Source: Gluconobacter oxydans (GTDB taxonomy: Bacteria; Pseudomonadota; Alphaproteobacteria; Acetobacterales; Acetobacteraceae). Taken from it: DNA of 64,000 nucleotides. Below, one piece after another: positions 5,506 through 14,444 of this stretch. The stretch covers positions 1 through 64,000 of the forward strand of contig NZ_BJNM01000004.1 of the NCBI RefSeq assembly GCF_006539685.1, given 5' to 3'. The notes beneath the pieces were generated by a model. That model ran no database searches, had not been told where the DNA came from, and worked only from the letters and a program-made list of their open reading frames with translations. Position numbers and translations under genes: made by a program. The number at the start of each line of letters is the position of its first letter. Positions within the stretch are counted from its first letter, which is position 1.

Positions 5506-8329
5506 CGTCACCAGCGGCAGGCGCTTCTGGAGCGGCCTCGGAGGCACCGGCCTCGCCAATCACCTTGGCACCGGCTTCGGAGCCTTCGTCGGTATCGCCC
5601 TCTTCCGTGTCGTCTTCGAGAACGGGGAAGACGCAGATGACGGTCTCGGTATCATTCAGGCGGAACAGCGTAACACCGCTGGCCTGACGGGACATGACAC
5701 GGACCTGCGACACCGGCAGGCGGATCAGGCGGCCCGTATCCGTCACCAGCATGACGTCCGTTCCATCGAGCGTCGGCAGGGTGCCCACCACTTCCTTGCC
5801 GCGACGGTTTGCGGAGAAGGTCATGTTGGTGATGCCCTGACCGCCACGGCCCGAGACACGGTAATCATAGGCCGAAGAGCGCCGGCCGAAGCCGCCATCC
5901 GTCACGGTCAGGAGGATTTCCTCCTGCTGCTCCAGCTCTTCGAAACGCTCCTGCGTCAGATCACCCGTGATCTCGACCGTTTCCTCATCACCAGAAACGG
6001 TTTCGTCCTCGGCGCTGTCGTCCAGGGCGGCATTTTCGGCGCGGCGCTTGGCATTGGCCATGCGCAGATAGGCTGCACGTTCCTCGACGCTCGCATCCAC
6101 GTGATTGAGGATGCACAGCGAGATGACCGCATCGCCCTCGCCCAGACGGATGCCGCGCACGCCTGTGCTGCCACGACCGGCAAACACGCGCAGCGTCTCG
6201 TCCGTGATCTGGAAGCGGATGCAGCGTGCATTCTTCGTCGCTAGGAACACGTCCTGACCTTCACGGCAGGTTGCCACGCCGATGAGGGAGTCGCCTTCAT
6301 CCAGCTTCATGGCAATCAGGCCGGAAGCGCGGATGTTGCGGAAATCGCTCAGGCGGTTGCGACGCACATTACCGCTGGCCGTGGCGAAGGCGAGGTGCAG
6401 GTCTTCCCACAGCTCCTCATCCTGCGGCAGCGGCAGAACGGCTGTGATGGAGTCTGTTCCCAGTTCCGGCAGCAGGTTGACCAGCGCACGGCCCTTGGCG
6501 GTCGGCGCGGCTTCCGGCAGGTGCCAGACCTTCATCCGGTAGGCTTTGCCGCCCGAGGAGAAGAACATCACCCACTGATGTGTGTGCGCATTGAAGCTGC
6601 GGACGATGATATCGTCCCCACGGCGTCCGGAGGCCGTGCGGCCACGGCCGCCACGGTTCTGGGAGCGGAAGACCTCCAGCGGCGTGCGCTTGATGAAGCC
6701 GTCGCGCGTGATGGTGACGACCATCTGGCCTGGCTCGATCAGGCTCTCATCGGTCTGGTCACCGAGTGCGTCGGAAATTTCTGTCACGCGCGGTGTGGCG
6801 ACTTCCGCACGGGCGGCCAGAAGCTCTTCGCGCATGACTTCCATCCGGCGCGGGCGGCTCTCGATGATCGCCAGCAGTTCGCCGATTTTCTGCGCGACTT
6901 CGCCCAGTTCGCCCTGGATCTTCTCGCGCTCCAGCCCCGTGAGGCGCTGCAGGCGCAGTTCCAGAATGCCACGGGCCTGGGCTTCCGTCAGGCGGACCTT
7001 GCCATCGATGATGACATTGCCTTCGTCGTGGATCAGCTCCAGCAGCGGGACGACTTCCGAAGCGTCCCATTCGCGGGCCATCAGCGATTCACGCGCCGTG
7101 GCGGCGTCCGGAGCCGCGCGGATCAGCGCGATGACCTCGTCGATATTGGCAACGGCCAGAACCAGACCGACCAGCAGATGCCCGCGGTCACGGGCCTTGT
7201 TCAGATCGAAGCGGGCGCGGCGCAGGATGACTTCCTCGCGGAAGCGCAGGAAGGCTTCCAGGATGTCTTTCAGCCCCATCGTCCGAGGCTTGCCGTCGTC
7301 GAGCGCCAGCATGTTGGCGCTGAAGGACGTCTGGAGCTGCGTGAAGCGGTAGAGCTGGTTCAGCACCACATCCGGGGTCGCATCGCGCTTGAGTTCGATG
7401 ACAACGCGCATACCCGAACGGTCGGACTCGTCGCGGATGTCGGAAATGCCTTCGATTTCCTTGGACCGCACCAGATCGGCGATCTTTTCCTGCAACGTGG
7501 CCTTGTTCACCTGATACGGGATCTCGGTGATGATGATGGCCTGACGGTCCTTGCGGATCTCCTCGATTTCAGCGCGGGCGCGTACCGGGATGGAGCCGCG
7601 ACCCGTCTCATAGGCGCGACGGATGCCGCTGCGGCCCATAATGATGCCGCCCGTCGGGAAATCCGGACCCGGGATGATCTGCATCAGCTCGTCGAGTTCG
7701 ATGGCCGGATTGGCAATCATGGCCAGCGTGGCGTCGATGACCTCACCCGGATTATGCGTCGGGATGTTGGTTGCCATGCCGACGGCAATACCGGCTGCAC
7801 CATTGACGAGCAGGTTCGGGAAGACGGCCGGAAGGACCTTCGGCTCGTTCTCGCTCTCGTCATAGTTCGGCTGGAAATCGACGGTATCGCGCTCAATGTC
7901 ATCCAGCAGGAAGGACGACGCCTTGGCCAGACGGGCCTCGGTGTAACGCATGGCCGCCGGACTATCACCGTCCACCGAACCGAAATTGCCCTGACCGTCG
8001 ATCAGCTTGACGCGCATCGACCAGTGCTGCGCCATCCGGACCATGGCGTCATAGATCGAGCTGTCACCATGCGGATGGTATTTACCCATCACGTCACCGA
8101 CGGCACGCGCCGATTTGCGGTAGGGCTTGTCGGCCGTGAAGCCGCTTTCGCGCATGGCGTAGAGAATACGGCGATGGACCGGCTTCAGACCGTCCCGCAC
8201 ATCCGGCAGCGCACGCGATACGATCACGGACATCGCATAGGCCAGATAGGAGGAGCGCATTTCCTCCTCGATCGTCACAGGAAGACGGCCGGAAGGGGTC
8301 AGATCAGTCGGCTCGGTCAGCTCGGTCAA
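5486..8329 (-). CDS. gyrA: DNA gyrase subunit A
   Basis: Breakage-reunion subunit of gyrase, which introduces negative supercoils. In the 947-residue protein the catalytic tyrosine is Tyr129 in [12 protein letters not shown]. The quinolone pocket reads [17 protein letters not shown], so Ser90 and Asp94 (E. coli Ser83 and Asp87) are wild type. The GyrA-box in the C-terminal beta-pinwheel reads QNRGGRG rather than the usual QRRGGKG. Between pinwheel blades lies an acidic insert ([17 protein letters not shown]), and the protein ends in an acidic tail. It leads the operon with coaD and ppi. Confidence 0.98.
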
Positions 8330-8615
8330 GACAGGTCACCACGCTAGAATTCAGTTGCCCGAGCATACCGCATGCGTCGCCGACACGCCACACCCGGCTC
8401 CCGCAGGAAGCGTCTGTGTCGTGGATGGTTCCTGTTCCCTCAAGCTTCCCTCAGGCGGCAGGAAATGTCACGCGCACGAAAGATTCACAAATCCACGCAA
8501 GAATGCGGGTCTTAGTTTGTATATTATTAACTTGCGCAATTTATTTGAAACCGTTAGCAATTCCCAAACACGCTCCGGCGAGTCTCTGCCGGAAATCTTT
8601 TTGGAAGATCTCATC

Positions 8616-11600
8616 ATGGCCGATACGACCAACGGAACCGACGACGTCACCTACAACAGCAGCGAAACCAGCTTTCACCAGCACGACTATGCCTGGGACT
8701 GGAATGGCTCCGCGATGGGTGGCGACTGGTCCGATCCGAGCAACTGGGTTCTGAAAAACAACGGCAATCCGGTGGACACGAACGGCGAGTCCTTCAGTAA
8801 CGATGCTATCCCCCAAAGCGAGCAGAATGCTGATGTTAATGTTGGCTACTCGGGCAACGCTACGCCGAACGTGGTCGTCTCCAACGCTGTACTTTACAAC
8901 CAGATCCGTAGCCTCAGCGTCTGGCAGAACAGCACCCTGAAGATTACTGCGCAGGGCGGAAATGGAAACGTTTTCGCAACGGCTGGTCTGGAAAACCACG
9001 GCACGATTATCATCGATACCCCGTCGAAGGTCGAACTCGGTGGCGTGCCGACGGGTGATGGCACCCTGACGATCATGAACAACGACGGGAACGTGACGTT
9101 TGATGACGCATATCTGAACAACGGTACGCTGAATCTGATCAACTCGACCCTCGGCAGCGTGGACGCTCCCGTTACCGTCTCCGGCGGTACGATCAACCTT
9201 CAGCAGAACAGCACGCTCGTTGCAGACCTGTATGGTGAAGGCTCCACGCTCAATGTCGATCCGGCAAGCGTCAACACCATCTATGTCAACGACCGCAACT
9301 CCAACAACAGCGGTTCCGTACAGGGCACCGTCATCAACGGTGTGTCCGAAAACACCCATTTCGGCATTCTGAGCGGCTCTTCCAAGCCGACCGCCGCCAC
9401 CTACACCGAGAACTCCGACGGGTCCTACACCCTGACGATCAATCTCGATAACGGTCGTTCCATCACCTACCCGACGGTTCATGTCGCAGACGGCTTCACG
9501 CCTGCTGCCCAGGCCACGATCGTCCAGGACGGATCGAACGGCTGGCTGGTTGAAGATGCCGGTACGAGCACGGCTTCGGCGTCTTATGCTACAAGCGATC
9601 TGCACCAGCAGATGGCTTCGACGGCCGCTGCTGCAGCCAGCGCCGGTGGTGACACCTCCCAGTACAGCACCAACGCCGTCAGCTATCACAATCACGATGC
9701 CGCATGGCGCTGGACCGGTCCCGCCACCGGCGGTGACTGGTACGATCCGAAGAACTGGACGCTGTATAACAGCAAGAACCAGCCCGTTGACACGACAGGT
9801 AATTCCTACAACGGCGACGCCATTCCGCAGAGCGAGCAGAATGCCGACGTCAATGTTGGCTATACCGGCAACACCACGTCGTTCACCGTTGTCGCCAACG
9901 CACCGTCCTACAACCAGATCCGCAGCCTCAGCGTCTGGCAGAACAGCACGCTGGAAATCACGGCAAATGGCGGTAACAACTACAACGGCTATGTCTTTGC
10001 CACGGCAGGCTTCGAAAACGACGGCACGATCCTGATCAACACCCCGTCGAAGGTTGAACTCGGCGGCGTCACGATGAACCGTGACGACGGTACGATCACG
10101 ATCATGAACAACGACAACAACGTCGTGTTCGATACCAACAACGTCAATAACGGCGGCACGATCAACCTGATCAACGCCACGCTGGGCTCGGCGACCAACC
10201 CGCTCTGGATCAGTGGCGGCACGGTCAACCTGTCGCAGGACAGCAGCCTGTTCCTGGATCCGAGCGAAAGCATCAACACCATCAATGTTGATCCTTCGAC
10301 GGTAAATACGGTTTATGTCGAAGCCAACGGCTTCCTGCATAACAACTCGGCCAACAACCAGAACATCGTCATCAACGGTGTGTCCGCCAACACGCATTTC
10401 GGTATCTCCGGTGTCACATCCGCTCCGACGGCTGCCACCTACACGCCGAATGACGATGGCTCCTACACCCTGACGATCACGCTGGCTGACGGTCGCGAGC
10501 TGACCTATGGCAACATCCATACGGCTGACGGTTTCACACCTGCTGCCACGGCATCCATCGTCCAGGACGGCACCAATGGCTGGATTGTCGAAGATGCCGG
10601 CGTCACGACCTGCTTCCTCGCTGGCAGCATGATCCGCACGCCGGAAGGTGATGTCGCTGTCGAGAGCCTGCGTCTGGGCAGCACGGTTCTGGCCTTCGTG
10701 AACGGCGAAGCCGTGGAGCGGACCGTGACTTGGGCTGGACGTGCGCACATGCTTGCCAAGGCTGGTCTGAGCGATGCCGAAGCCGGTTATCCGGTCCGCA
10801 TCCTGAAGGACGCGCTCGCCGAGGGCGTGCCTTACAAGGACATGCTGGTCACCCCGGAACACTGCCTGTTCCTGAACGGTGGTTTCGTGCCGGCGCGTAT
10901 GCTCGTGAACGGTCGTTCCGTGATCTATGACCGCTCCCTTCCGTCCTACGACTACTTCCACGTGGAAACGGCCGAGCACTCCGTCATCATGGCGGACGGC
11001 ATGCTGACGGAAAGCTATCTCGACACTGGCAACCGTCATTCCTTCCGCCAGAACGGTACCGTCGTTTCGCTCGGTGGCCGTGCACGCAACTGGAACGATG
11101 ATGCGGCAGCCCCGCTGGTTGTCAGCCGCGAAGTGGTCGAGCCGATCTTCCGTGAGATCGAGGCCCGCGCCATCGCAGCCGGTCTTGAAAACACCATCGA
11201 GGCTCCGGCCCTGACCGAAGATGCCGGTCTGCACCTCGTCACCAGCACGGGTCAGACCATCCATCAGGTCCGGACGGCCAATGGCCGCGCGATGTTCATG
11301 ATCCCGTCCGATGTGACGGAAGTGCGCCTCGTGTCCCGTACCTTCCGTCCGAGCGAAACGGTCGGACCGTTCGTGGATGACCGCCGTCAGCTCGGCGTTC
11401 TGGTTGGTGAAGTCACGCTGTTCGACTCGGGCAACACAATCCGCATCGATCAGCATCTGACCGATGCCGGCCTGGCAGGCTGGGACGTTCAGGACGATGC
11501 GGCCGCCCGCTGGACCAACGGCAACGCTGTGCTGTCCCTGACGGCCCGCCAGCCGAACAGTCTCGGTATGCTGGCCATTCAGGTTCTGGCCGCAGGTCCG

Positions 11601-11648
11601 TACGTGCTGGTTTCCGAAGGTGAAGCCGAAACGGCTCACACCGCCTGA
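8616..11648 (+). CDS. Tandem-repeat surface-type protein with C-terminal Hint domain
   Basis: The 1010-residue protein has two near-identical ~300-residue modules (about 21-320 and 358-662). Both share GGDW.DP.NW, AIPQSEQNADVNVGY, YNQIRSLSVWQNSTL, TPSKVELGGV, NTHFGI and the ending VEDAG. They are Asn/Thr/Gly-rich and look like beta-strand repeats of adhesins. A Hedgehog/intein (Hint) domain follows: Cys666 in TTCFLAGSMIRTPEG is the nucleophile position and TPEH (746-749) is the conserved histidine block. No C-terminal HN dipeptide is evident, so Hog-type cleavage rather than splicing is more likely. A ~190-residue tail follows. No classical signal peptide is seen. Start is MADTTNGTDD at 8616. 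The role (released or covalently attached surface protein) is inference. Confidence 0.8.
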   Translation: MADTTNGTDDVTYNSSETSFHQHDYAWDWNGSAMGGDWSDPSNWVLKNNGNPVDTNGESFSNDAIPQSEQNADVNVGYSGNATPNVVVSNAVLYNQIRSLSVWQNSTLKITAQGGNGNVFATAGLENHGTIIIDTPSKVELGGVPTGDGTLTIMNNDGNVTFDDAYLNNGTLNLINSTLGSVDAPVTVSGGTINLQQNSTLVADLYGEGSTLNVDPASVNTIYVNDRNSNNSGSVQGTVINGVSENTHFGILSGSSKPTAATYTENSDGSYTLTINLDNGRSITYPTVHVADGFTPAAQATIVQDGSNGWLVEDAGTSTASASYATSDLHQQMASTAAAAASAGGDTSQYSTNAVSYHNHDAAWRWTGPATGGDWYDPKNWTLYNSKNQPVDTTGNSYNGDAIPQSEQNADVNVGYTGNTTSFTVVANAPSYNQIRSLSVWQNSTLEITANGGNNYNGYVFATAGFENDGTILINTPSKVELGGVTMNRDDGTITIMNNDNNVVFDTNNVNNGGTINLINATLGSATNPLWISGGTVNLSQDSSLFLDPSESINTINVDPSTVNTVYVEANGFLHNNSANNQNIVINGVSANTHFGISGVTSAPTAATYTPNDDGSYTLTITLADGRELTYGNIHTADGFTPAATASIVQDGTNGWIVEDAGVTTCFLAGSMIRTPEGDVAVESLRLGSTVLAFVNGEAVERTVTWAGRAHMLAKAGLSDAEAGYPVRILKDALAEGVPYKDMLVTPEHCLFLNGGFVPARMLVNGRSVIYDRSLPSYDYFHVETAEHSVIMADGMLTESYLDTGNRHSFRQNGTVVSLGGRARNWNDDAAAPLVVSREVVEPIFREIEARAIAAGLENTIEAPALTEDAGLHLVTSTGQTIHQVRTANGRAMFMIPSDVTEVRLVSRTFRPSETVGPFVDDRRQLGVLVGEVTLFDSGNTIRIDQHLTDAGLAGWDVQDDAAARWTNGNAVLSLTARQPNSLGMLAIQVLAAGPYVLVSEGEAETAHTA
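8676..9560 (+). repeat. Passenger module 1 of the Hint protein
   Basis: First copy of a ~900-bp intragenic duplication, from the HQHDYAWDWNG codons to VEDAG. Long stretches are identical at protein level to copy 2 (AIPQSEQNADVNVGY, QIRSLSVWQNSTL). The copies have diverged at synonymous and non-synonymous sites, so the duplication is not recent. Confidence 0.85.
9687..10598 (+). repeat. Passenger module 2 of the Hint protein
   Basis: Second copy of the module, from HNHDAAWRWTG to VEDAG, directly followed by VTTC, where the Hint domain begins. Differences from copy 1 are small insertions (NNYNGYV, TMNRDD) and substitutions in the middle third. Confidence 0.85.
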
Positions 11649-11670
11649 GACCAGACGGTCTGAAACGGAA

Positions 11671-11705
11671 AAAGCCTCATCCCTTCGGGGATGAGGCTTT
11701 TTTTT
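11671..11705 (+). terminator. Rho-independent terminator of Hint gene
   Basis: AAAGCCTCATCCC / GGGATGAGGCTTT is a 13-bp stem with a TTCG tetraloop, followed by eight or more Ts. It lies 22 bp past the stop codon. Confidence 0.93.
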
Positions 11706-11746
11706 GTCCATTCTCCCCGTGTGGGTGTAGGGCAAGGCCCCAACGG

Positions 11747-11776
11747 AAAAAGGCGCCCCTGTATGGGACGCCTTTT
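11747..11776 (-). terminator. Terminator of TonB-dependent receptor gene
   Basis: AAAAGGCGTCCC pairs with the opposite arm GGGGCGCCTTTTT (one mismatch) around a 4-nt loop on the minus strand. It starts about 25 bp past the receptor stop. Confidence 0.75.
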
Positions 11777-11801
11777 CTTGTAGGATAGTCTGAAAACGGG
11801 C

Positions 11802-14444
11802 TCAGAAGTTGGCGTTGATCCGTCCGTAGTAGTAACCGCCGGTGATGGGCACCTGCAGCGAGAACTGATCGTAGATCTGGGCGCCGCGGGAGTTGTTGAC
11901 CTGCTGGACGCGACGGGGGCGGACGTTGAAGATGTTGTTCGCGCCGATCGCCAGATGCCAGTTGCTGTTGAAGCGGTAGCCGACTTCGATATCCGTCAGC
12001 CAGCGCGGCGTATTCTTGAACTGCGCAAAGCAGCTGTTGGAATAGGCCAGGCTTCCACCGCTCGGGCAGGGGAGCGTCTTGTCCGTCCAGTCATAGTAGG
12101 TCAGCATGGACGTGGTTTCGCCATACCGTGTCTGGCGGACGTTGAAGTCCCATTTTCCGACCGTATATAGCGCGTTCAGGATGATCTTGCTGCGCGGATA
12201 GGCGGTCGTGATGTAGGCGATGTTCTGCGCATTCAGCAGCGGATTGCCGTTGGTGTCGGTACCGTTGTGGTGCAGGCGCGTGCGGTTCAGGTCCAGCGCC
12301 ATGCTGAGGTTCAGGTTACCGGCATTGTGGAAGCGGATCATGTAGTCCGCCTTGATATCCAGACCCTGCGTGCGGGTGCTGGCGCCGTTGGTCATGTAGT
12401 ACGCGGATACGTTGTCGGCCGTGATGCTGTTAAGCGGCAGGGAGTATCCCATGGCCTCGATGGCCTCGATGGCGGACTCGCCCTTGACGGTGCCACCACC
12501 CACGATGCGGTCACGCAGATTGATCTGGTAGACATCCGCTTCGACGTGGAAGTTCTTCACCGGCTCCACGACGATACCGCCGCTGGCACTGACGGAACGT
12601 TCCGGCTTCAGGGCGCTTGCCCCTAGGACGCGGGCGGCCGTTGAGCTGACGGGCAGCAGGCCGGAAGCGCCGGTCGGATCCACGTTCATGGCGCTGTAGT
12701 GCTGCTCGGCCAGCGTCGGCGCACGGAAGCCGGTGCTGATGGTGCCACGAAGCGCAATCTTGCTCGTCACGTCATAACGGGTCGAGACCTTGCCGTTCTC
12801 CGTGTTGCCGACATCGGTGTAGTGCTCGAAGCGGCCGGCGAAATCGAGATCCCAGTGCTTGAGGGGGTGGAAGTCGCCATCGACATAGGCCGCCCAGATG
12901 TCGCGGCTCCAGTTGCCGGCGCTGTTGGGACCGAGACCGGCATAGCCCTGCGTCCCGCCCAGTTCATAGGATGGCGGAGTACCGGCCTTGATCTGATAGG
13001 TTTCGAGGCGATGCTCGCCACCAAAGGCCAGCGTCATCGGAACGGTATGGGCGATGTTGAACTGGCGGCGGAAGTCCAGATTGTTGGTCCACTGCGCCAT
13101 GCGATAGGTCTCGGCGCGCGTGGAGCTGGGCGACCAGCCGCAGCCATCGGTCGAATAATAGGACGAGGTCGGATCGGTCGAGCAGGTGCTGGCGAGCATG
13201 CCTGTATTGGCGGTGTTCTTGTTGCCGATCTTGTTGCCGTCAGCACCATAAGTGGTGCTCAGGTCCCAGTCGAAACCAAAGAAATTGTCGCCTTTGAGGC
13301 CGAGCGTGGCGGCGTAATCGTTTTCTTCCGATGTTTCGAGCGGGGAGAAGCCAGCCGGGTACATGGTCGGCGCGATCGCCGGGGTCCGGTAGTTTTCGTA
13401 CGCTTCGCCATGGCGGTGCATGTAGGTGATGAGGCCGTAGAAATTCACGCCTTCGGTAATGGTCTTGCCGAAATCGATGGCGAGGCTTTCGCGGGTTTCT
13501 TCGGGCGTGCTCATGATCTTGTTGGAATCAGCGGGCACGTTCATCGCGTTCGGAACGACACCGTTATAATATCCGGTCGTGGTGGCGTTGTTGGGCCAGC
13601 TTCCGATCAGGCGGTGGTCGCGTGCGCCGACGACCATGTGGTCGGTGTGGTAGACTTCGCCGCTGATGTGCAGGTAGCCGTCATTGCCCCATTTTACGCC
13701 ACCATCGGCGTCCACCTTGTACTGCCAGCCGTCGCCGTTATAGGCGTTCGCACCGGTCTGCACCGAAGTGTGCATGCCGTGAGCCTGCTTCTTGGTGATG
13801 ATATTCACCACGCCCGCAATGGCGTCGGAGCCGTACATCGCGGCGGCACCGTCTTCCAGCACTTCGATATGGTCGATGGCGCTGGCGGGGATCGTGTTCA
13901 GATCAGCACCCGTGGAGCCGAACTGCGGGCCGGCATCGGCCGTGATGTTGGCCGTGTTGTGGCGGCGCTTGCCGTCTACCAGGACCAGGACTTCGTTCGG
14001 CCCAAGGCCGCGCATCTGGATGGAAGACGTCAGGGCGGAAGAATCCGCGCCCATGGCCTGCACGTTGATGGAGGCATAGGTCCGGGTCAGGGCATCCGCG
14101 ACGTTCATCATGCCGGAATGGCGCAGTGTTGCAGCCGAAATCACGCTGACGGGGGACGAGCTTTCACGGGCCTTGCGGTTGGTCGCATGGGTCCCGGTGG
14201 TGACGTTGATTGTCTCGGCTTCGCCCGTGAAATTGACGTCCGTCTTCTTCTTGCGGGGGGCGACAACGGCGGGTGTGGCCGTCGTAGCCGCAGGATGGGC
14301 AGCACTGTGAGCGGCGCTGCTGGGTTTAGCGCTGTGATGGCGTGTGGCGGGATGCGCCGTGGTGGTTGCGGCCAGGGCAGACATGCAGGGCATGACGGAA
14401 ACTGCCGTCGTTACGAGCAGGGAGATGCGATGCCGGGATTTCAT
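11802..14444 (-). CDS. TonB-dependent outer membrane receptor
   Basis: Energised outer-membrane transporter, likely for an iron complex or other scarce nutrient; the substrate cannot be read from sequence. The 880-residue precursor starts with a signal peptide (MKSRHRISLL...MSALAA). A low-complexity Ala/His/Thr-rich stretch follows, then a TonB-box-like ETINVTTG near residue 78. The plug domain is SSSPVSVISAATLRHSG, QMRGLGPNEVLVLVDGKRR, DLNTIPASAIDHIEVLEDG, ending GVVNIITKK. The remaining ~650 residues are an aromatic-rich beta-barrel that ends YGRINANF with the expected terminal Phe. It stands alone, without FecIR-type regulators, and is convergent with the Hint gene. Confidence 0.93.
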   Translation of the reverse strand: MKSRHRISLLVTTAVSVMPCMSALAATTTAHPATRHHSAKPSSAAHSAAHPAATTATPAVVAPRKKKTDVNFTGEAETINVTTGTHATNRKARESSSPVSVISAATLRHSGMMNVADALTRTYASINVQAMGADSSALTSSIQMRGLGPNEVLVLVDGKRRHNTANITADAGPQFGSTGADLNTIPASAIDHIEVLEDGAAAMYGSDAIAGVVNIITKKQAHGMHTSVQTGANAYNGDGWQYKVDADGGVKWGNDGYLHISGEVYHTDHMVVGARDHRLIGSWPNNATTTGYYNGVVPNAMNVPADSNKIMSTPEETRESLAIDFGKTITEGVNFYGLITYMHRHGEAYENYRTPAIAPTMYPAGFSPLETSEENDYAATLGLKGDNFFGFDWDLSTTYGADGNKIGNKNTANTGMLASTCSTDPTSSYYSTDGCGWSPSSTRAETYRMAQWTNNLDFRRQFNIAHTVPMTLAFGGEHRLETYQIKAGTPPSYELGGTQGYAGLGPNSAGNWSRDIWAAYVDGDFHPLKHWDLDFAGRFEHYTDVGNTENGKVSTRYDVTSKIALRGTISTGFRAPTLAEQHYSAMNVDPTGASGLLPVSSTAARVLGASALKPERSVSASGGIVVEPVKNFHVEADVYQINLRDRIVGGGTVKGESAIEAIEAMGYSLPLNSITADNVSAYYMTNGASTRTQGLDIKADYMIRFHNAGNLNLSMALDLNRTRLHHNGTDTNGNPLLNAQNIAYITTAYPRSKIILNALYTVGKWDFNVRQTRYGETTSMLTYYDWTDKTLPCPSGGSLAYSNSCFAQFKNTPRWLTDIEVGYRFNSNWHLAIGANNIFNVRPRRVQQVNNSRGAQIYDQFSLQVPITGGYYYGRINANF

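Follow-up and report, generated by a model that had tools for sequence, protein, structure and literature searches.

Duplicated adhesin-like modules, a Hint_2 domain and a conserved tail in a leaderless protein of Gluconobacter oxydans

The DNA analysed here, referred to as the window, is a stretch of 64,000 nucleotides from Gluconobacter oxydans (contig NZ_BJNM01000004.1, positions 1 to 64,000). Positions 8616-11648 of its forward strand form a coding sequence of 1010 residues, with an ATG at 8616 and a stop at 11646-11648, in which two copies of a module are followed by a Hint_2 domain and a conserved tail. Judged from its sequence, the encoded protein appears to be a variant within the Hint_2 kind, its architecture being sound and the mechanism proposed below plausible. 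The features supporting this description are the following.

8616..11648, + strand: coding sequence of a two-module Hint_2 protein without leader (from the frame; start kept in 11 Gluconobacter orthologues)
8634..9569, + strand: module 1, residues 7-318 (BLASTP of the halves; A3 profile match 8649-9572)
9645..10607, + strand: module 2, residues 344-664 (BLASTP of the halves; A3 profile match 9657-10610)
10608..11027, + strand: Hint_2 domain, PF13403 (E 3.3e-32; 1.6e-33 in the genome search)
10611..10613, + strand: Cys666, first Hint residue and candidate thioester nucleophile, with Thr665 at position -1 (Cys in 82/82 domains)
10851..10862, + strand: block B, TPEH, residues 746-749 (His in 82/82; T and H in 35/35)
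10959..11015, + strand: block F region, HVETAEHSVIMADGMLTES, residues 782-800 (both His and the Glu in 82/82)
11034..11645, + strand: tail domain, residues 807-1010, with C-terminus ETAHTA (A5 alignment; profile match 11034-11618)

The gene had been singled out by a first-pass annotation. Its coordinates, frame and start were confirmed, as were two duplicated Asn/Thr/Gly-rich modules of about 300 residues, a Hint domain with Cys666 and TPEH, and the lack of both a splice-type HN end and a Sec signal. The module copy number, which it had left to a survey of orthologues, proved to be two in all 12 near-full-length relatives.

Duplicated modules

The two modules are identical at 204 of 321 aligned positions (64%, E 1e-131, BLASTP between the halves). 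At the DNA level, most of the 10 families of direct repeats pair both copies at a spacing of 1002-1038 nt. The first 664 residues are rich in Asn (13.0%), Thr (11.9%), Gly (10.2%) and Ser (9.6%) and contain no Cys. Among 34 loci from public genomes, the nearest relatives are 11 Gluconobacter orthologues (L020-L030) with 79-92% identity in the best segment, the next being a single Acetobacter persici gene (L031, 54% identity). Both modules are present in all 12 of these near-full-length relatives (11 Gluconobacter, 1 A. persici).

A module tree was built from 25 rows, comprising the window, 10 of the 11 orthologues, A. persici and one fragment. The Gluconobacter first copies, together with the fragment, form one group and the second copies another (each branch 99/98), and the duplication therefore predates these species; the A. 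persici copies form long branches of unsure placement. Of 26 genomes of the genus, 13 have the modules, and each of these 13 has them paired in tandem within a window-type gene. Diverged copies are found elsewhere, either as two modules followed by Hint and tail (L087, L088) or as one module followed by both (L096).

The AlphaFold model of module 2 consists mostly of strands, with a mean predicted local distance difference test score (pLDDT) of 81 and a predicted template modelling score (pTM) of 0.84. The strand pattern of this model, together with the AIDA-like passengers of relatives, suggests that the module may be a beta-solenoid. No family scored above cut-off in a Pfam scan of the modules, and a sequence-profile search of the PDB yielded chance-level matches only for the module (best E 0.18) and none for the whole protein.

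The Hint_2 domain, its tail and its glycosyltransferase partners

Hint_2 (PF13403) is the sole family above cut-off in a Pfam scan of the whole protein. It matches residues 665-804 with 112.3 bits against a cut-off of 28.4, and the match spans profile positions 1-146 of 147. All 35 Hint_2 members scanned match this profile. Weak similarity to Pfam PT-HINT was observed in 16 of the 35 (best 1e-5) and to Pfam Hint (PF01079) in 10 (best E 0.0035); the window protein itself has no match to PF01079 at E values up to 10. The nearest solved protein retrieved by a HMMER profile is the bacterial intein-like (BIL) domain 2lwy, aligned over the first ~36 positions only (E 6.6e-5 and 9e-4).

The conservation of the domain was assessed on 82 distinct Hint_2 domains drawn from 91 matches, with a profile built from tail-bearing Hints that strongly deviant Hints may escape. 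No substitution occurs across the set at the first Cys, at the His of block B, at either His of block F or at the Glu of the Hint end. This Glu is followed by Ser in 76 domains and by Thr in 6, and His-Asn is found in none of the 82. The block F region of the window protein likewise closes with Glu-Ser where inteins have His-Asn, its Hint end reading DGMLTES; the form DG-x-L-x-x-S-Y is one which we take to be closer to the Hedgehog end than to the intein end. TPEH follows the (S/T)xxH pattern of block B, and the only other Cys of the protein, Cys750, adjoins the block-B His. Hint and tail were modelled together with AlphaFold (mean pLDDT 83, pTM 0.67); the Hint part of the model reaches a pLDDT of at least 90 in 10 of its 14 ten-residue blocks and is mostly beta, which is compatible with a Hint fold. 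Among the 12 Gluconobacter genes, the Hint also displays the highest identity of the four domains (89.6%) and the lowest ratio of nonsynonymous to synonymous substitution rates (dN/dS 0.095), against 0.14-0.17 for the modules and tail; a value of 0.092 was obtained for the linker of 26 residues, where dS (1.2) is close to saturation.

The tail was described at first pass as a terminal stretch of about 190 residues. It is present, with about 200 residues, and it was missed at that stage that it is a conserved domain linked to the Hint. When 10 genomes were searched for both profiles, 62 tail matches were obtained, 60 of them immediately behind a Hint and the other two partial; the tail is therefore a near-obligate Hint partner. 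This linkage is new here and concerns one conserved domain. Conversely, 10 of 70 Hint genes in the same genomes have no tail (72 matches, two genes being split in two). Six positions (D116, R118, G121, V122, G149 and W160) are invariant in the 34 rows of tail alignment A5, and identity averages 85% among the 12 Gluconobacter genes. A Pfam scan of the tail returned nothing significant (E 0.1 or worse), and the sole PDB sequence match in the tail covered a stretch of 49 positions in a mannanase (E 1.4). Elsewhere in the genome of the window, at G000:C11:87886-88128, part of a tail is matched in an open frame of 89 residues that has no Hint and is probably a gene remnant.

The tail-less Hints have a different partner. 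A GT4 glycosyltransferase is fused behind or lies next to the Hint in 7 of 19 tail-less versus 0 of 49 tail-bearing cases (Fisher p 5e-5), a count from which 4 Hint open reading frames (ORFs) were dropped for want of downstream sequence and in which tail-bearing Hints are over-represented, since L020-L053 were retrieved for their resemblance to the window protein. The enzyme is fused in L061, L074, L076 and L080 and is the next gene in L059, L062 and L081; it was recognized by Pfam in L059, L061, L062, L076 and L080, and by homology in L074 and L081. The choice of profile changes the split between tail and no tail by a few genes: the 2797-residue ORF of L068, counted here as tail-less, is assigned a tail (E 3.7e-15) when the wider A5 profile is applied, and L083 gives a short partial match. 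One of the fusions belongs to the genome of the window (G000:C1; L061:4778-10030, - strand). Its single chain of 1750 residues contains an endonuclease/exonuclease/phosphatase domain, a Hint_2 and a GT4, so that the Hint would separate a probable extracellular enzyme from a probable cytosolic one.

Hint_2 genes were found in 119 of 150 sampled genomes of the family of the window, the top genomes displaying at least 24 matches. Among 13 other Hint_2 proteins scanned, AIDA stalk repeats are present in the passengers of four and an endonuclease/exonuclease/phosphatase domain in one. Hint_2 genes also stand in tandem arrays, three in succession at L041:2931-12433 and four at L075:2800-16556. At L065:5545-7382 (G000:C19), a Hint frame without a full passenger has a passenger-like ORF just upstream, and this gene may be broken or frame-shifted. 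In the available portions of PMC11999647 and PMC12487129, such proteins are mentioned only as having an unknown function or because the domain is enriched. No functional study of Hint_2 in these bacteria was found in the literature searched, from which subscription papers were mostly absent.

Export, C-terminal ends and gene surroundings

The window protein has no hydrophobic stretch of the Sec type, the highest 15-residue Kyte-Doolittle mean in its first 75 residues being -0.36. The autotransporter barrel PF03797 was matched neither in the protein nor in its genome, while controls matched in 2 of 14 genomes (E. coli and Caulobacter); a type Va autotransporter was ruled out for lack of this barrel. 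The TpsB partner ShlB (PF03865) was not matched in the genome either, but no control genome matched it.

A candidate exporter is encoded in the same genome at G000:C13. Its HlyD adaptor scores above the TIGR01843 cut-off; its ABC protein is closest to TIGR01846 HlyB, below the cut-off of that model, and scores below the cut-offs of type I models generally. What is expected of a type I substrate, namely the absence of a leader and a genome that also encodes an ABC/HlyD exporter, is present. In 150 genomes of the family, with kinship ignored, a strong exporter match accompanies Hint_2 in 97 of 119 genomes, versus 10 of 31 genomes devoid of Hint_2 (p 3e-7). Ten genomes with a weak exporter match were scored as lacking it in this comparison; if they are counted in, the figures become 102/119 versus 15/31 (p 3e-5). 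The strong exporter match is present in 58 of the 61 genomes with at least 5 Hints. At L058:7199-16879, the exporter of G000:C13 is followed by genes for a Sel1-repeat protein and a double glycosyltransferase; the locus, all in one orientation, also encodes a protein of 330 residues whose kind is unknown. A 37% relative of this double glycosyltransferase adjoins a Hint gene in L050.

The last residue of the Hint proteins is strongly biased. Hint_2 ORFs of L001-L086, stop included, were compared with the longest non-overlapping stop-to-stop ORFs of at least 250 codons from L020-L086, some of which are perhaps not genes. The terminal residue is Ala in 60 of 82 Hint proteins versus 66 of 357 control ORFs, and Ala, Gly or Ser in 92.7% versus 35.5%. 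When counted by cluster, terminal Ala amounts to 35.6/48 at 60% identity, 9.7/15 at 50% and 4.9/7 at 45%, and to 3.5/4 upon coarser clustering (90 ORFs in 4 clusters). The bias spans tail-bearing and tail-less Hint proteins and is possibly the trace of a C-terminal recognition signal.

The neighbours of the window gene are gyrA and a TonB-dependent receptor gene, both on the opposite strand. In all 11 Gluconobacter loci the matched part of gyrA starts ~310-325 bases upstream of the window-type gene, the two genes being divergent. The receptor gene lies downstream in 7 of these loci and on the gyrA side in the remaining 4, as after a rearrangement. None of the adjoining genes is for secretion or glycan, and none is a small immunity-like gene.

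A coding start upstream of 8616 was considered, since the frame is open back to 8355. It was ruled out because a stop in L021 sits a few codons 5' of the start (its open frame begins SLLDDLTMADT) and because the stretch is conserved as a leader. The 11 Gluconobacter orthologues share the MAD start and the sequence context upstream of it, with TTG as start codon in one of them. The leader (window:8516-8613) is conserved among 12 Gluconobacter sequences and comprises an AT-rich block with the invariant TTATTAACTT (8524-8533), an invariant GTTAG (8553-8557) and then, directly 5' of the ribosome site, a CCGGC/GCCGG hairpin with a U-rich run, listed as follows.

8574..8593, + strand: leader hairpin and U-rich run (kept in most of the 12 A6 sequences, broken in L023)

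Terminator-like sites are no more numerous in the region than chance would give (4, versus 3.6 expected), and an Rfam search of 8000-12000 gave no match. The conserved leader could be a promoter combined with a translation- or termination-control element.

Interpretation of the window protein and its relatives

The reading that we prefer, and to which we give about an even chance, is that of an adhesin-like, leaderless, surface-directed protein whose Hog- or BIL-type C-terminus would process itself, the passenger being cut from the Hint-tail part at Cys666. The Hint is regarded as Hog-like or BIL-like rather than as an intein because its catalytic-type residues are invariant and the splicing His-Asn occurs in none of the 82 domains. 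The whole chain would be made in the cytosol, as its lack of a Sec signal indicates, and exported in one piece, most likely by an HlyB/HlyD-type type I exporter reading the C-terminal end. The Hint would then fold and, as the conservation of the Cys and His suggests, Cys666 would attack the carbonyl of Thr665 to form a thioester. Water or another small nucleophile would resolve this thioester, so that the passenger is freed or re-anchored and the Hint-tail part left; splicing is not expected since the His-Asn end is missing. The tail would act as a dedicated partner of the Hint, either positioning the nucleophile or carrying the export signal. If the export signal does lie behind the Hint, cleavage must follow export. 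The predicted masses are 69.5 kDa for residues 1-665, 37.1 kDa for residues 666-1010 and 107 kDa for the uncut chain; at first pass, the N-terminal fragment had been put at ~68 kDa. The interpretation offered at the same time is supported in part, namely as to a duplicated adhesin-like passenger, a Hint whose catalytic-type residues are intact and whose end is not of the splicing type, and the lack of a leader. The glycosyltransferase link of the tail-less group had been overlooked.

The motif pattern of the window Hint, judged from motifs alone, fits that of a B-type BIL. Such domains are described in the accessible part of PMC7765530 as having the intein motifs except the C-terminal one and as being able to cleave their N-terminal flank. 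The BIL domain 2lwy resembles the window Hint in its N-terminal block, and the window Hint differs in having no A-type His-Asn end; an A-type BIL was rejected in view of the Glu found in 82/82 domains. With Hog proteins, the window protein shares the order of passenger, Hint and dedicated C-terminal region and the lack of a splicing end, and some of its relatives match PF01079 weakly. It differs in being bacterial and leaderless, in having no PF01079 match and in its tail, devoid of significant Pfam match. Within Pfam Hint_2, whose profile it matches almost in full, its particularity is the setting of the domain, which is preceded by a duplicated beta-rich passenger and followed by a conserved tail that has no name. 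Its strand-rich, N/T/G-rich modules recall AIDA-type adhesins, from which it differs by the absence of a Sec signal, of a barrel found in the genome and of a significant Pfam match in the modules.

Several observations weigh against this preferred reading. The window protein has no match to GG.G.D, the pattern of the RTX GGxGxD repeats, although some type I adhesins lack RTX repeats. No exporter gene lies beside the window gene, the co-occurrence of exporter and Hint ignores phylogeny, and 22 Hint-bearing genomes have no strong exporter match. In 7 of 26 genomes of the genus, one-module proteins (L089-L095) are found without Hint or tail match, and the role of the module there therefore does not need a Hint. 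The residue at -1, Thr in the window protein, is Pro in some of its orthologues (e.g. L020, L024, L030), in 39 of 82 Hint_2 domains and in 22 of 25 tail-less ones; in inteins, a Pro before the first Cys usually disfavours the first acyl shift. Finally, the fused GT4 of the tail-less group suggests a separation in the cytosol, where GT4 enzymes usually reside. The sole Hint-free module protein read, L089, has a Gly/His/Trp-rich end with a Pfam collagen-repeat match, which is possibly metal-binding.

The frequent Pro at -1 lends some credit to a first alternative, in which the Hint is a folded, non-cleaving domain of structural or export-related role and the protein acts uncut as an adhesin. The portion of PMC11999647 available, where a Hint domain protein is given as of unknown function, is compatible with it. 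We consider this alternative unlikely, albeit well short of negligible: a domain without chemistry would hardly account for the Cys and His kept in 82/82 domains or for the low dN/dS of the Hint.

A second alternative, which we hold to be decidedly unlikely, is a Hog-like transferase, in which the hydroxyl or amine of a tail-bound envelope lipid or glycan would attack the Cys666 thioester and the passenger would be anchored covalently by its C-terminus. The Hint-linked tail with its invariant D, R, G, V, G and W speaks for it. So does the place of the tail, which is the one occupied in Hog proteins by the region that recognizes a sterol or adduct (available text of PMC2362128); the likeness is one of layout only. 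The GT4 enzymes of tail-less Hints are also in its favour, although their usual cytosolic location is not, and the tail itself resembles nothing in Pfam significantly, its only PDB sequence match being the mannanase stretch (E 1.4). The glycosyltransferase link of the tail-less group, together with the tail link, makes a transfer worth testing.

A polymorphic toxin, whose Hint would free the tail as an effector for a neighbour cell, is very improbable. The weak PT-HINT similarity and the C-terminal position of the tail are in its favour, but the tail is a single conserved family kept with the Hint instead of a variable end, and the neighbours are gyrA and the TonB-dependent receptor gene instead of a small immunity-like gene. 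An intein or splicing BIL domain joining its flanks is scarcely credible and was rejected, despite the Hint family and the N-terminal block match to a BIL domain, for want of a C-terminal His-Asn with a +1 nucleophile (Glu instead of His throughout, then Ser or Thr instead of Asn) and of an insertion in a conserved host protein.

The layout described here, with a varied passenger, an invariant site of thioester type, a near-obligate tail or a frequent glycosyltransferase partner, and a preferred C-terminal residue, allows a direct test of the role of Hint_2. If the passenger is released, Hint_2 would provide a common route for shedding adhesins; if it is transferred, Gram-negative bacteria would have a new way of anchoring proteins covalently at their surface. 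A broader proposal, which we regard as a long shot, is that acetic-acid bacteria and their relatives practise a hedgehog-like surface processing. Passengers of various kinds without a leader, namely solenoid adhesins and a nuclease, would have their C-termini activated by Hint_2 as thioesters, for transfer to an envelope lipid or glycan picked by the tail or by a glycosyltransferase, which in the tail-less group would make or present the acceptor. If true, Gram-negative surfaces would possess a system of covalent anchoring akin to that of sortases.

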